64,000 nt of DNA from NCBI GenBank assembly GCA_947479755.1, contig CANKAM010000010.1, positions 1 to 64,000 of the forward strand. Direction: 5' to 3'. How positions within the stretch are numbered: the first letter of the stretch is position 1; each line of letters opens with the position of its first letter. The DNA comes from Bacteroidota bacterium. GTDB lineage: Bacteria; Bacteroidota; Bacteroidia; SXHM01. Under the pieces are notes generated by a model. The model searched no databases and was not told the origin of the DNA. It was given only the letters and a program-made list of their open reading frames with translations. Made by a program: the position numbers and the translations under genes. This document shows, piece after piece, positions 42,263 to 58,085 of the stretch.

Positions 42263-42346
42263 TGCCCACGGGGAGACTCGAACTCCCAAGGTAATTACAC
42301 CAACGGCTTCTGAGACCGCAACGTTTGCCAATTTCGCCACGTGGGC
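42263..42346 (-). tRNA. tRNA-Leu (anticodon CAG)
   Basis: 84-nt class II tRNA on the minus strand. The acceptor arms are GCCCACG and CGTGGGC with discriminator A; the anticodon loop is CTCAGAA (anticodon CAG) on a stem with two G-T pairs; there is a long variable arm (GGT-ACC) and T arm GGGAG-TTCGAGT-CTCCC. CCA is not encoded. The surrounding 42065-42521 stretch holds no other gene. Confidence 0.93.
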
Positions 42347-52695: not shown

Positions 52696-53925
52696 CTATT
52701 TGGTTTCAGCTTTTTCTGCAACAGCCTCCTGAAGGGTGAGTTCTGAAATATTTTTGCCTGTATTGGCAATAAATAATTTGCTGTTTTGGATTTTGGCAGC
52801 TTTCTTCAGCAGGTTTTCAAGTATCACTGTGCCAATTACAAAGCCGTTTCCTTTCTCTGAAATGTTTTCGAATTCAATCAGGTTCAGTTCCTGCTCATTA
52901 CTGAAACGCACATACAACTCAAGCAATACATTTTTTGAGTAACGGAGTTTTTTGTCCTGCGAGGCTTTGTGGTAAGCATATTTGTAATCGTAGGTAACCG
53001 CTGAAATGTCTGATAATACAGCAGATCCGGTTGGGTGACCGCCCGCACCCTTGCCTAAATAAAACTGTTTGTCGGAAAAAGCTGCTTCCACAATCACCCC
53101 GTTAAACTCGTTTTCAACAAAGTATAAATACTGATGAGGTGCAACAAAAGTAGGCATGGTGTGAATTGTGATTTCATCGTCATTCAGTTTGCGCACCACG
53201 TTTACCAATTTAATTTTTCTTCCGCTTTTGCGCGCATACTCTATATCTGCGGTTGAAAGATTTTGGATCCCCAGGTTCAGAATCTCATCTGGGTGAATGA
53301 ATAAACCGTATGCATGTGCTGAAATAATTGTGAGTTTGAATTTGGCATCAAAACCGCCCACATCTAATAAGGGATTCGATTCAGCGAAACCTAAATCCTG
53401 CGCCTGTTTCAAGGCCGTATCATAATCAAGGTGCTCGTTAAAATTTTTTGAAAGAATATAATTGGATGATCCGTTGAAAATTCCGCTTACAGAGTTTAGT
53501 AACTCGTTGTCGTAATATTCCTCCAGCGTGCGGATAATAGGAATACTGCCGCAGGAAGAGGCTTCATACAATAGTGAAACATTGTGTTTGTTTTGCAGTT
53601 CAACTAATTCGGCCAGGTGATTTGCCACCATTTTTTTGTTCGCAGTAACTACGCTTTTGCCGGAAGTCATTGCAGTTTTTACAATGTTGAATGCTTCATC
53701 GGCATCGTCTATCAACTCCACGACTAAATTAATTTCTGAGTTATTCAGAATGTCGTTTTTATCGAAAGTAAAGAGTTCCATCGGTAATTTGCGCGATTTG
53801 CTCCTGTCCTTCACACAGATTTTAACGATGTCGGCTTTGATGCCGCTGCTCTTGGATAATACATCGTAAAGCCCTTGTCCCACGCAGCCGAAACCAAAGA
53901 GTCCGATTTTTAATTTTGAAATCAT
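52696..53925 (-). CDS. hom: Homoserine dehydrogenase
   Basis: 409 aa monofunctional enzyme (no aspartokinase fusion). It reduces aspartate semialdehyde to homoserine, the branch point for methionine and threonine. NAD(P)-binding GLFGFGCVGQGLYDVL (about residues 8-23), VVTANKKMVANH and the catalytic region GIFNGSSNYIL, GFAESNPLLDVGGFDAKFKL with the active Lys. A C-terminal extension after about residue 330 is present. It is the last gene of the sulfur operon. Confidence 0.92.
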   Translation of the reverse strand: MISKLKIGLFGFGCVGQGLYDVLSKSSGIKADIVKICVKDRSKSRKLPMELFTFDKNDILNNSEINLVVELIDDADEAFNIVKTAMTSGKSVVTANKKMVANHLAELVELQNKHNVSLLYEASSCGSIPIIRTLEEYYDNELLNSVSGIFNGSSNYILSKNFNEHLDYDTALKQAQDLGFAESNPLLDVGGFDAKFKLTIISAHAYGLFIHPDEILNLGIQNLSTADIEYARKSGRKIKLVNVVRKLNDDEITIHTMPTFVAPHQYLYFVENEFNGVIVEAAFSDKQFYLGKGAGGHPTGSAVLSDISAVTYDYKYAYHKASQDKKLRYSKNVLLELYVRFSNEQELNLIEFENISEKGNGFVIGTVILENLLKKAAKIQNSKLFIANTGKNISELTLQEAVAEKAETK

Positions 53926-53940
53926 ATTATTTGTTTACTG

Positions 53941-54951
53941 TTAATAAAATTGATTGATAGCCTCTGTAAGTTGTTTTGTTTCCAATAAAAAACCATCGTG
54001 TCCGTAAAGTGAATCTATTTCCCTGAACTCTGCTCCCGGAATATGTTCTGCCAGAAATGATTGTTCGTTGGGCGGAAAAAGTATATCAGAAGTAATGCCG
54101 ACAGCAAGTGTTTTTGCTTTGATAGAAGCCAAGGCATTGGTAACACTTTTTCTTCCCCTTCCAACATTATGTGTGTCCATTGCTTTGGATAAATACCAAT
54201 AAACATGAGCGTTGAAACGTTTAACCAATTTATCGCCCTGATAATTCTGATATGATGCAGCGCGAAAGTTGTCAGTCTTTTCGTTGGTTTCCTCGCTCTG
54301 ACTTTGTCGGTAAGCATGGTAGTTACGGTAAGAGAGCAAAGCAATAGCACGTGCTGTTTTCATTCCGTTTTGTCCTGCACTCAGGCTTTCTGTTCTGAAA
54401 GTCGGGTCGGTTTCCAGCGCCATGCGTTGCGATTCACGAAAAGCAATTCCCCAGGGCGAATGCAACGCGCTTGTTGCAATAGCAACAAGGTGTTCAATGC
54501 GTTCAGGTTCTTCGATGCTCCATTCAATGGCTTGCTGTCCGCCCAATGAACCACCAATAACAGTGTGTATTTTTTCAATGCCGAGATGTGCAGCCAGCAA
54601 TTGTTTTGCCTTCACCATGTCGCGCACAGTTATCATTGGGAAACTGAGAAAATAAGGTTTTTCTGTTTCGGGATTTATACTTGCTGCGCCTGTTGTTCCG
54701 TAAAACGAACCAAGTATGTTATCGCAGACAATAAAGTATTCATCAGGATTGTAGAAATCAGTTGCACCAAATAACCCTTTCCACCAGTCAAACACATCAG
54801 AACTGGCCGTTAGTGCGTGACAAACCCAAACTACTTTACTTTTTCCGGTAACAAAATTTCCATATGTGTGATACGCAATCTCTAATTCAGGAAGGCTTTT
54901 CCCGCTTTCGAGTCTGAATTCTTTTTTATAATGAAACTTTCTGGCACTCAT
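53941..54951 (-). CDS. metX: Homoserine O-acetyltransferase MetX
   Basis: 336 aa from ATG 54951 (MSARKFHYKKEFRLESG, the family start); an ATG at 54966 would overlap metZ by 14 bp. Alpha/beta hydrolase fold: nucleophile Ser in GGSLGGQQAIEW, Asp in ITSDILFPP, His in SLYGHDGFL. It acetylates homoserine using acetyl-CoA for the next sulfhydrylation step. Whether it uses succinyl-CoA instead cannot be read with certainty. Confidence 0.9.
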   Translation of the reverse strand: MSARKFHYKKEFRLESGKSLPELEIAYHTYGNFVTGKSKVVWVCHALTASSDVFDWWKGLFGATDFYNPDEYFIVCDNILGSFYGTTGAASINPETEKPYFLSFPMITVRDMVKAKQLLAAHLGIEKIHTVIGGSLGGQQAIEWSIEEPERIEHLVAIATSALHSPWGIAFRESQRMALETDPTFRTESLSAGQNGMKTARAIALLSYRNYHAYRQSQSEETNEKTDNFRAASYQNYQGDKLVKRFNAHVYWYLSKAMDTHNVGRGRKSVTNALASIKAKTLAVGITSDILFPPNEQSFLAEHIPGAEFREIDSLYGHDGFLLETKQLTEAINQFY

Positions 54952-54952
54952 A

Positions 54953-56131
54953 TTATTTGCTTGCATTCAGCGCCTGTTCAACATCAGAAATAATATCATC
55001 AATGTGCTCCAGTCCGACAGAAATGCGGACTAGCCCCGGTAAAATTCCCGATTCCAATCGCTCTGCTTCTGTCAACTTTGCGTGGGTTGAGGAAGCCGGA
55101 TGCGTAACAATGGAACGTGTGTCGCCCAAATTAGCAGAAATAGAAAGCATCTTCAATGCATCCATAAATTTCCTACCTCTCTCCACTCCGCCTTTTACAA
55201 TAAACGTTACAATTCCACCGCCTGCGCTCATTTGCTTTTTTGCAATTTCGTAATGCGGGTGCGAAGGAAGGAAAGGATATTTCACCAGTTCAACTTCTTT
55301 GTTATTCTCCAACCATTGCGCAAGTTTAAAAGCGCTATCAGAATGTCTGTTCATCCGAACAGCTAGTGTTTCCAGACTTTTTGAAATAATCCATGCATTG
55401 AAAGGTGAAAGCGCAGGGCCGGTGTGCCTTGCAAATAACTTTATGGTGTCAACATACTTTTTGCTTCCGTTAATGGTGCCGCCCATAACGCGTCCTTGTC
55501 CATCTAAATACTTTGTTGCAGAATGAATGATAATATCTGCTCCGTATTTTACAGGTTGTTGTAAATAAGGTGTTGCAAAGCAATTGTCCACTACCAAAAT
55601 CAGATTGTTTTGTTTTGCAAATTTCCCCAGCCATTCTAAATCAATAATGTCTATTCCCGGGTTTGACGGGGTTTCCACATACAACAGTTTGGTTTCTTTT
55701 TTCACCGCAGCCTGCCATGTTTCGGGAGTGTTGATGTCCACATAGCTGTGCGAGATATTCCATTTCGGAAGTAGTTTGGTAATCACGCTGTGCGTAGAGC
55801 CGAATATCGAACGACAGGAAAGCAAATGATCCCCTGCATTAAGCAATGCAGCAAAGGTGGTAAACACGGCTGCCATGCCTGTTGCCGTTGTTAAACCTTC
55901 TTCTGTTCCTTCAAGAAAATTCATTTTTTCAATCAACTCGCTGTTGTTGGGATTGGTAAAACGGCTGTAAATATTTCCTTCCTTTTCATCCGCAAAAAGC
56001 GCACGCATATCTTCCGCATCATCAAACATAAAACTGGAAGTAAGAAAGAGGGGGGTGCTGTGCTCTTTCTGAGCAGTGCGTGCTGTTTGCGTGCGCACGG
56101 CAAGTGTTTCAAAATGTTTTGATTTTGCCAT
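54953..56131 (-). CDS. metZ: O-acyl-homoserine sulfhydrylase (MetZ type, PLP enzyme)
   Basis: 392 aa, fold type I PLP enzyme. PLP-Lys in HSATKYLDGQGR (about residue 205), substrate-pocket YSRFTNPNNSELIEKM, phosphate-binding TATGMAAV and late THPASSTHAKL. It condenses the acylated homoserine with sulfide to homocysteine. The GQGR after the Lys is the MetZ mark as I remember the family; MetY or a cystathionine synthase activity is an alternative. It sits between osmC and metX with a 2-nt gap upstream. Confidence 0.88.
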   Translation of the reverse strand: MAKSKHFETLAVRTQTARTAQKEHSTPLFLTSSFMFDDAEDMRALFADEKEGNIYSRFTNPNNSELIEKMNFLEGTEEGLTTATGMAAVFTTFAALLNAGDHLLSCRSIFGSTHSVITKLLPKWNISHSYVDINTPETWQAAVKKETKLLYVETPSNPGIDIIDLEWLGKFAKQNNLILVVDNCFATPYLQQPVKYGADIIIHSATKYLDGQGRVMGGTINGSKKYVDTIKLFARHTGPALSPFNAWIISKSLETLAVRMNRHSDSAFKLAQWLENNKEVELVKYPFLPSHPHYEIAKKQMSAGGGIVTFIVKGGVERGRKFMDALKMLSISANLGDTRSIVTHPASSTHAKLTEAERLESGILPGLVRISVGLEHIDDIISDVEQALNASK

Positions 56132-56133
56132 AA

Positions 56134-56553
56134 TTATTTTCCGTTGATGGTATAGGAGTAGGTGATGGTCGCAGTCTTTTCTAATGTTTTAGCAACAGAA
56201 CAATATTTATCCAATGACAATTTGATAGCATGTTCTAATTTATCCTTTTCAATTTTTCCGGTAAGAATAAACTGGATGTGAATGTCGGTGAACAGCGAAG
56301 GAATTTTGTCTTTTTCTCTTTCTGCGGTAATCACTACATCGTAATCGTCCACTTCCTGTCTTTGCTTTTTCAAGATGGAGATTATATCAATGCTAGCGCA
56401 TCCGCCTAGTCCCATAAGCATCATTTGCATCGGGCGAACACCCAAATCATCACCACCATCCTGCGGACCTGCATCAATGGATACGGTTCTTCCGTTTGTT
56501 CCAGTGGCTTCAAGGTTGTAGTTTTTGTTGAGGCGTTTAAGTTTTATTTCCAT
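56134..56553 (-). CDS. OsmC-family peroxiredoxin-like protein
   Basis: 139 aa from ATG 56553. The two conserved Cys are in GLGGCASIDI and KYCSVAKT, as in OsmC/Ohr thiol peroxidases; it would remove organic peroxides or act on sulfur compounds. It sits between cysH and metZ, 1-2 nt from both, so it belongs to the sulfur operon. A longer frame upstream overlaps cysH and is not needed. Confidence 0.88.
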   Translation of the reverse strand: MEIKLKRLNKNYNLEATGTNGRTVSIDAGPQDGGDDLGVRPMQMMLMGLGGCASIDIISILKKQRQEVDDYDVVITAEREKDKIPSLFTDIHIQFILTGKIEKDKLEHAIKLSLDKYCSVAKTLEKTATITYSYTINGK

Positions 56554-56554
56554 G

Positions 56555-57256
56555 TTAGTTCGTTTCGTGCAATCCACATTCCTTTTTTGAATTTTCCCAC
56601 CACCAGCGTCCTGCGCGTATATCTTCGCCCGGCTGTATAGCACGTGTGCAAGGCGCACAGCCGATGCTGACAAAACCTTTGTCATGCAGGGGATTATAAG
56701 GAACGTTGTTCTCTTTTAAATACTCAACAACCTGTTCCAAACTCCATTTAGCAAGCGGGTTATATTTAATTAGCTGATACGTTTCATCCCATTGAAACAG
56801 CGGCAGGTTTTCGCGTTCTGTGCTTTGTCCGCTGCGCAAACCTGTAATCCATATCTCCTTTCCTTTCAAAGCTCGCTGTAAGGGTTCAACTTTGCGGATA
56901 TGGCAACATTCCTTGCGGTTTTCCACTGAATCATAAAAACTGAAAGGTCCTTTCTTTGTAAGTAATTCTTCTGTTTTTGTTTTATCGGGAAAATAGGTTT
57001 TAATTTCTTTTTTGTAGCGTTTTATAGTCTTGTCAAAGGTTTCGTAGGTCTCGTTGAAAAGCCTTCTGGTGTCAATGGTAAACACTTCAGCAACAAGATT
57101 GTTTCTGAAAATCAGATCGGTCAGTACCTGGTCTTCTTGCCCGAAGCTGGTAGAGAAAGCAATGCTTTTATAGTTCTGTGCAAGCGCATCAAGAACTTCA
57201 GGAATTGGTTTTTCTTTAAACTGTTCTGATAATTTTTGTGCGGTAACTAATGACAT
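56555..57256 (-). CDS. cysH: APS/PAPS reductase CysH
   Basis: 233 aa from ATG 57256. It reduces activated sulfate to sulfite in assimilation. PP-loop-like FSTSFGQEDQVL (about residues 34-45), DTRRLF, ITGLRSGQSTER, and cluster Cys in KECCHIRKVEPL and SIGCAPCTRAI; the CC-to-CxxC set is the 4Fe-4S form that usually accepts APS rather than PAPS. The C-terminal catalytic Cys is in ECGLHE. The ATG at 57307 would run through the attenuator hairpin and is rejected. First gene of the cysH-osmC-metZ-metX-hom operon. Confidence 0.9.
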   Translation of the reverse strand: MSLVTAQKLSEQFKEKPIPEVLDALAQNYKSIAFSTSFGQEDQVLTDLIFRNNLVAEVFTIDTRRLFNETYETFDKTIKRYKKEIKTYFPDKTKTEELLTKKGPFSFYDSVENRKECCHIRKVEPLQRALKGKEIWITGLRSGQSTERENLPLFQWDETYQLIKYNPLAKWSLEQVVEYLKENNVPYNPLHDKGFVSIGCAPCTRAIQPGEDIRAGRWWWENSKKECGLHETN

Positions 57257-57280
57257 TTTTGTGCTGTAAAGTGGGTTGAG

Positions 57281-57327
57281 GTCGGGATTGTAAATCCCGA
57301 CTAACACCGAGATTTAGATGTTGCGGG
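57281..57327 (-). promoter_or_regulatory. Attenuator-like hairpin with competing pairing before cysH
   Basis: On the minus strand GTCGGGATT and AATCCCGAC (57281-57301) form a perfect 9-bp stem with a 3-nt loop. An upstream CCCG (57324-57327) with AACA can pair instead with TGTT and the CGGG of the first arm, making the two folds mutually exclusive. There is no T-run after the stem, so it would not be a classical intrinsic terminator. Confidence 0.55.
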
Positions 57328-57343
57328 CAATATGAAAAATGCC

Positions 57344-57418
57344 TTAACAACAACAGCAACAGCAGCACATCATCCGGTTGGATGCTATTGAAGAATGATG
57401 TTGTTTAATAGGTGTCAT
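57344..57418 (-). CDS. Poly-Cys leader peptide (24 aa), candidate attenuator ORF
   Basis: ATG 57418 to TAA 57344. The sequence is MTPIKQHHSSIASNR then MMCCCCCCC: two Met and seven consecutive Cys codons (UGC UGC UGU UGC UGU UGU UGU) directly before the stop. It begins about 9 nt after the predicted transcription start, lies between a strong promoter and a stable hairpin, and precedes an operon for sulfate reduction and methionine synthesis. A stalled ribosome at the Cys run when charged tRNA-Cys is scarce would change folding downstream. Poly-Cys leader ORFs acting this way are known in mycobacteria; I know of no named family here. Confidence 0.72.
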   Translation of the reverse strand: MTPIKQHHSSIASNRMMCCCCCCC

Positions 57419-57433
57419 GCTGCTGAATGAGGG

Positions 57434-57465
57434 CAAATATAAATTCAAATGATTTAGCTTCCAAA
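57434..57465 (-). promoter_or_regulatory. Promoter of the leader-cysH-met operon
   Basis: On the minus strand TTTG (57462-57465), a 20-bp spacer and TATATTTG (57434-57441): an exact fit to the Bacteroidota consensus. It lies in the 73-bp gap after hisIE, so the sulfur genes are a separate unit from the his operon. Confidence 0.8.
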
Positions 57466-57491
57466 TAAAACATTCATCAGCTAAGTATCAA

Positions 57492-58085
57492 TTATTTATG
57501 CCGCCCTTCCAATTTTTTCACAACATCAGTAAGTTTTAAATCTTTTGCAGCAAGTAACACCATATAATGGTAGAGCAAGTCGGCTGCTTCGCCAATAAAT
57601 AATTCTTTGTTGTTGTCCTTGGCTTCAATTACTAATTCTATGGCTTCTTCGCCTACTTTTTGTGCAACTTTATTAATGCCCGATGCAAATAATGAAGATG
57701 TATAGGATTTATCTGATGGATGATTTTTTCTGTCTTGTATTGTTTTTTCAAGATGCTCCAGAAAAAAAGAATTCGGGAAATTGTTTTCATTAAAACAAGT
57801 GTCGCTTGCCTTATGGCAAACAGGACCAATCGGGGTTGCCTGTATCAGCAAGGTGTCGTTGTCGCAATCTTCTTTAATACTTAGTACTTCCAGAAAGTTG
57901 CCCGATGTTTCCCCTTTTGTCCACAGTCTTTGTTTGCTGCGGCTGAAAAATGTTACCCTTTTTTCTTTTTCGGTTTTCTCCAATGCTTCGCTGTTCATGT
58001 AGCCCAGCATCAGCACTTTTGCGGTTTTTGCATCCTGAACTATTACAGGAATTAGTCCTCCTGATTTTTCAAAATCTAAATTCAT
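57492..58085 (-). CDS. hisIE: Bifunctional phosphoribosyl-AMP cyclohydrolase / phosphoribosyl-ATP pyrophosphatase HisIE
   Basis: 197 aa. HisI part (about residues 1-105): [35 protein letters not shown] and the zinc/Cys region DCDNDTLL and [12 protein letters not shown]. HisE part (about 115-197): [16 protein letters not shown] and [15 protein letters not shown]. Its ATG overlaps hisF by 4 nt. Last gene of the his operon. Confidence 0.95.

Follow-up and report, generated by a model that had tools for sequence, protein, structure and literature searches.

A probable cysteine-responsive leader peptide upstream of the cysH-osmC-metZ-metX-hom operon in a Bacteroidota bacterium, and related Cys/Met leaders in the class Bacteroidia

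A 24-codon ORF ahead of the cysH-osmC-metZ-metX-hom operon of a Bacteroidota bacterium is interpreted here as a Cys-responsive leader peptide, to which reading we assign a probability of about 0.85. It lies in the window, by which we mean the whole stretch of 64,000 nucleotides that was analysed. Leader translation is likely to sense the supply of cysteinyl-tRNA and to control the operon behind it; translation of the ORF, ribosome stalling and a translational output are all inferred. The ORF, its promoter motif, its conservation, the class-wide association with sulfur genes and the absence of a local intrinsic terminator are established by sequence and comparison, while the regulation itself is an inference made without expression or ribosome data.

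Leader ORF and promoter in the window

The initial annotation had proposed a minus-strand ORF with seven Cys codons at its end, and translation of the strand confirmed it as MTPIKQHHSSIASNRMMCCCCCCC followed directly by a stop codon (Table 1). The promoter proposed with it, TTTG-N20-TATATTTG, was recovered with the exact spacing. The ORF had also been placed about 9 nt beyond this promoter; it is indeed downstream, but its ATG lies 15 nt past the last G of TATATTTG, and ~9 nt fits the presumed transcription start instead. Transcription in Bacteroidota usually starts 5–8 nt downstream of the promoter, and if that applies here, the 15 nt spacing leaves the leader a 5′ UTR of only ~8–10 nt; the transcription start is unmapped. 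No Shine-Dalgarno sequence is apparent at the window leader. The leader stop codon is separated by 87 nt from the start of cysH, behind which osmC, metZ, metX and hom follow closely spaced, the gene names given to this operon being upheld by NCBIfam. The arrangement thus meets the criterion for an attenuator, namely a short same-strand ORF just upstream with codons clustered for the end product of the operon, as well as the narrower one of a (nearly) leaderless ORF, located ahead of sulfur genes, with a Cys run close to its stop.

Short ORFs are common, and one without any function could in principle arise by chance. However, the number of runs of seven TGY codons expected in the genome from its TGY frequencies is only about 0.001, and a single TGYx7+TAA run is present in the 3.9 Mb genome, with none in a reversed control, in keeping with the earlier contention that seven such codons are improbable by chance. 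The leader is also the sole short intergenic ORF of the window that bears a Cys cluster. Together with the conservation and class-wide recurrence described below, these figures contradict chance, which we regard as exceedingly improbable.

Table 1. Leader, operon genes and predicted RNA elements in the window.
Feature	Position	Strand	Basis and remarks
Bacteroidota-type promoter	57434..57465	(-)	Direct reading; TTTG at 57465-57462, exactly 20 nt, TATATTTG at 57441-57434; conserved in L003, L004 and L006
CAGCAGCAT at the leader start codon (CAGCAGCAU region)	57417..57425	(-)	MFE fold; can pair with the 5′ half of the Cys codons
Leader ORF, 24 codons, MTPIKQHHSSIASNRMMCCCCCCC and stop	57344..57418	(-)	Translation; frame and length retained across four species, stop TAA or TGA
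Two Met codons preceding the Cys run	57368..57373	(-)	Met-Met; Leu-Met in L006
Seven Cys codons, TGC TGC TGT TGC TGT TGT TGT	57347..57367	(-)	Stalling presumed to occur here; complement of the cysH start region
GGC...GCC hairpin, then GCAACA	57319..57343	(-)	Conserved block in four species; fold, final Cys codons the predicted partner of GCAACA
ACAGCA, 6-11 nt before the cysH start codon	57262..57267	(-)	Folding and duplex prediction; predicted to be sequestered by the Cys codons
cysH (phosphoadenylyl-sulfate/APS reductase)	56555..57256	(-)	NCBIfam; start at 57256
osmC (OsmC family protein)	56134..56553	(-)	NCBIfam
metZ-like (O-succinylhomoserine sulfhydrylase family)	54953..56131	(-)	NCBIfam
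metX-like (homoserine O-acetyltransferase)	53941..54966	(-)	NCBIfam
hom (homoserine dehydrogenase)	52696..53925	(-)	NCBIfam

Conservation among close relatives

The leader was found at the same place before cysH in three further species, with the peptides MTHIKQHHSSITSNGMMYCCCCCC, MTHIKQHHSFIKSAGMMCCFCCCC and MNQITHRHSSIAPNGLMCCCCCCC, and in a near-identical copy of the window locus (L002). Across the four species the promoter, length, frame and Cys tail are kept, while the stop codon swaps between TAA and TGA and the third positions of the Cys codons vary between C and T. Conservation of the frame bears only indirectly on whether the leader is translated. The first Met is Leu in L006, and the second is invariant. 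The leader is absent from a congener, G005, though the same cysH-osmC-metZ-metX-hom operon is present there; in that genome (L198, 3125-10020) the operon is found at a different place, behind an adenosylhomocysteinase-like gene. With four sequences only, covariation could not be judged. Because searches in the genus, family and order of the window gave only seven genomes, sampling was extended to the class.

Cys leaders before cysH across the class

We sampled 396 genomes of the class Bacteroidia for cysH loci and added genome-contig loci, a small number of them from beyond the class, which gave 159 loci in total, some redundant. A cluster was scored where an ATG-started short ORF no more than 450 nt upstream contained at least four copies of the same residue within six. 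Cys, normally among the rarest residues, was the clustered residue at 13 loci; Leu followed with 5, and no other residue exceeded 2. The leaders recovered from other families include MSIKSNHSRSTSRPYLTNSLQTEFIKSSMLDANNPCCCCCCC, MKNLSPSVSLSESSRLPYLPTHFAIDFKLNNCCCCCCC, MSKNVHEFPLPAAQSSATFSTYMFTTIGTANTICCCCCCC and MLFASTSLKLYPCCCC, each ending at a stop codon, and between families the peptides are unrelated outside the Met/Cys cluster; what they have in common is position, length, Met/Cys codons and sulfur-gene neighbours. The initial annotation had named Cys-rich ORFs upstream of homologous operons as the check to be made, and the outcome strongly favoured its proposal: besides the conserved leaders of the genus, such ORFs were found across many families before cysH, metY, a sulfite-reductase-like gene and a siroheme gene.

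Because the peptides have little in common beyond the Cys-rich tail, the codons, rather than the peptide, appear to be under selection. The same lack of relationship between families is difficult to reconcile with a functional Cys-rich microprotein involved in metal, thiol or redox sensing; seven Cys residues could bind metal and the ORF would in principle be translated, yet we consider such a product very improbable.

Two minor observations were made on these loci. A Cys leader, MKKFLIKYKYEYCCCCRMCRM (L178:485-550), precedes a gene for uroporphyrinogen-III C-methyltransferase (siroheme). In L050, L158, L165, L174 and L181, a AGTAGACT-like or CCTAC...GTAGG-like motif recurs between the promoter and the leader ATG, close to the latter, and may be where a transcription factor for sulfur genes binds.

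Met/Cys leaders before metY

At metY (O-acetylhomoserine sulfhydrylase) loci, a short ORF with a Met/Cys cluster was present upstream in 29 of 53 cases, whereas none of 20 dinucleotide-shuffled sets contained any and the reverse strand gave 1, and Cys plus Met was the commonest among all amino-acid pairs tested in these upstream regions. About six of the metY leader loci had first been found via the codon pattern MMMCC, most being independent of it. When this pattern was searched for with neighbours disregarded, it occurred at 49 places, compared with 4 in a reversed control; nine of the 49 were clear of long ORFs, and eight of those nine preceded metY, cysH or a NirA/sulfite-reductase-like gene. 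At L238:1538 (the start of the MMMCC codons), the leader MKFTNNQNLNSYMMCMMMCCCMRSDAGGYLAE stands before a NirA/sulfite-reductase-like gene of 710 aa.

These leaders bear on the earlier suggestion that one ribosome could read both Cys and Met supply, which is supported at the level of the class by the mixed Met/Cys leaders before metY, and only weakly for the window leader. The mean Met content per 10 residues is 2.7 in metY leaders versus 0.9 in cysH leaders (p = 0.001), with values of 2, 2, 2 and 1 in the window clade, in which one operon serves both pathways; part of this contrast is built in, in that the cluster criterion for metY leaders counted Met and the one applied to most cysH leaders did not. 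A leader that senses Cys only, with Met codons present for RNA structure or by descent, is a reading to which we give slightly less than even odds. It would account for the replacement of the first Met by Leu in L006, for the location of the AUGAUG before the Cys run within a predicted stem, and for the mostly low Met content of cysH leaders elsewhere, but it leaves unexplained the invariance of the second Met, the Met-rich leaders of metY, and the inclusion of metZ and metX in the window operon.

Terminators, tandem units and SAM-I riboswitches

Units composed of a leader and an intrinsic terminator were found before metY in L211, L213, L234, L236, L293, L300, L305, L316, L317 and L318. Although 21 of 35 units scored as terminators, compared with 3.7 expected in shuffles, this figure overstates the true number because simple scoring admits doubtful stems that overlap Cys codons, as in L222, L247 and L278, where the stem lies partly inside those codons. 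By eye about 15 are convincing, including the second unit of L300, which was scored in one scan only. It is probable that some members of the class use leaders of this kind for transcription attenuation. In L234, L293, L300, L305, L317 and L318, the leader and terminator unit is doubled in tandem before metY, and both leaders are rich in Met/Cys.

A second form combines the leader with a SAM-I riboswitch (RF00162), the aptamer of which was detected in 16 of the 29 leader-bearing metY loci (L222, L247, L260, L263, L266, L270, L273, L274, L276, L278, L279, L280, L283, L285, L295 and L299). The distance from the end of the aptamer to the leader ATG is 1-9 nt in the eleven metY loci measured; at cysH loci it is 12-20 nt in L139, L152 and L194, and 113 nt in L153. 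It is possible that SAM-I and a Cys/Met leader together make a two-signal control RNA. At the window locus itself, no intrinsic terminator was found in 57150-57560, a range that includes the spacer between leader and cysH, nor was SAM-I or any other Rfam element found at the leader; within the window, Rfam matched nothing but a tRNA (42263-42346).

On balance, we think it probable that the Bacteroidia possess a class-wide, hitherto undescribed set of Cys/Met leaders at sulfur-amino-acid genes, in three interchangeable forms: (i) the leader alone with a translational output, as in the window, (ii) the leader followed by an intrinsic terminator, frequently with the unit doubled in tandem, and (iii) SAM-I placed 1-20 nt before the leader start, such that SAM and charged Cys/Met-tRNA would be read in series. 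This suggests that, in a large bacterial class, the reduction of sulfate and the synthesis of homocysteine may be governed by a count of Cys and Met codons. Unannotated genes would thereby gain a function, and the SAM-riboswitch composites and tandem attenuators offer natural objects of study.

Comparison with known systems

That poly-Cys leader ORFs act as Cys-responsive attenuators in mycobacteria, as the initial annotation stated, is borne out by the literature, in which polycysteine leaderless short ORFs are linked to Cys-responsive translation attenuation (Canestrari 2020, doi 10.1111/mmi.14498, as cited in PMC9031893, PMC9094748 and PMC13236596). The window leader resembles the mycobacterial ORFs in being short, 5′-located and presumably (nearly) leaderless, with a Cys run and with cysteine genes behind it, but differs in phylum, in its Bacteroidota promoter, in lacking an apparent Shine-Dalgarno sequence, in its unrelated sequence, in the Met codons beside the Cys run, and in an operon that also makes methionine precursors. 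Since leaders are unrelated even between families of Bacteroidia, convergence or fast turnover is the likely relation to the mycobacterial elements, a judgement from sequence without direct comparison. Cys leader peptides have also been predicted for Mycobacterium cys, P. acnes cys and B. longum cbs genes (Seliverstov 2005, PMC1262725). These share Cys runs near the leader stop and the lack of a conserved terminator hairpin, and differ in belonging to Actinobacteria; no Met/Cys mixed leaders were found in the part of that paper available to us. The SAM-I riboswitch is alike in controlling the same pathway and directly precedes Cys/Met leaders in relatives, but is absent at the window locus.

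Bacteroid-trp RNA (Rfam RF01692), which holds a trp leader peptide, is comparable as a leader of an amino-acid operon in Bacteroidota, albeit for Trp and not Cys/Met. It was reported as a cis-regulatory motif of Bacteroidetes (Weinberg 2010, PMC2864571). For Flavobacterium psychrophilum, a paper reports strong hints that leader peptides act as attenuators ahead of amino-acid operons, and its main text names neither Cys nor Met (PMC9723704). The literature searched, coverage of which was partial, yielded no description of Cys/Met leaders in Bacteroidota or of composites of SAM-I and a leader, and only within these bounds does the earlier remark stand that no description of the arrangement was known for this phylum. 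Cys leader-peptide attenuators are thus known in Actinobacteria, while their occurrence in Bacteroidota and the two unusual composite forms are apparently undescribed.

RNA folding and the output step

The fold of the window leader is stable relative to shuffled sequences (z = -4.1). In it, one part of the Cys codons is paired with CAGCAGCAU at the leader start, and another with GCAACA and with the ACAGCA that immediately precedes the cysH AUG. The spacer in L004 is otherwise divergent, and the blocks conserved there are GGC...GCC-CAACATCT and ACAGC...ACAAAAATG. In all four species, 5.6-8.2 pairs are expected to join the Cys codons to the cysH start site; in the window, however, the duplex of these two regions ranks only 6th of 51 genes. 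When the Cys codons were masked, as a model of a stalled ribosome, the unpaired probability of cysH positions -16 to -5 rose from 0.30-0.50 to ~0.9 in the window, L003 and L004; in L006 it was not raised, and the opening energy fell from 6.2 to about 3.5 kcal/mol. Synonymous recoding gave no sign that the choice of C or T in the Cys codons is tuned for pairing, and masking did not influence the start site in general when all 21 leaders without a terminator in the class were taken together (p = 0.89), with the effect present in L158 and L174.

From these models, we lean modestly towards translational sequestration as the output step. A near-leaderless transcript would begin some 10 nt ahead of the leader AUG. 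Where Cys is sufficient, ribosomes would pass the Cys codons and leave the leader, and the freed stretch of UGY repeats could pair with GCAACA and with ACAGCA before the cysH AUG, holding cysH translation low. Where Cys-tRNA is short, a ribosome would stall on the Cys run and cover it, the cysH start region would remain free, and the operon would be translated. The same Cys sensor could alternatively act through premature transcription termination, which here would have to be Rho-dependent. Relatives do carry leader and intrinsic terminator units before metY, and Rho has been suggested for the mycobacterial cases by Seliverstov 2005 (PMC1262725), yet the window lacks any terminator-like site between leader and cysH and has a conserved pairing partner at the cysH start, and we consider such termination unlikely. 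Besides the elements invoked for sequestration, the spacer between leader and cysH contains a perfect palindromic hairpin, GTCGGGATTTACAATCCCGAC (57281-57301). This strong hairpin was considered as a part of the attenuator and rejected, as the genome contains a form of it four times and L004 lacks it; it is probably a dispersed repeat.
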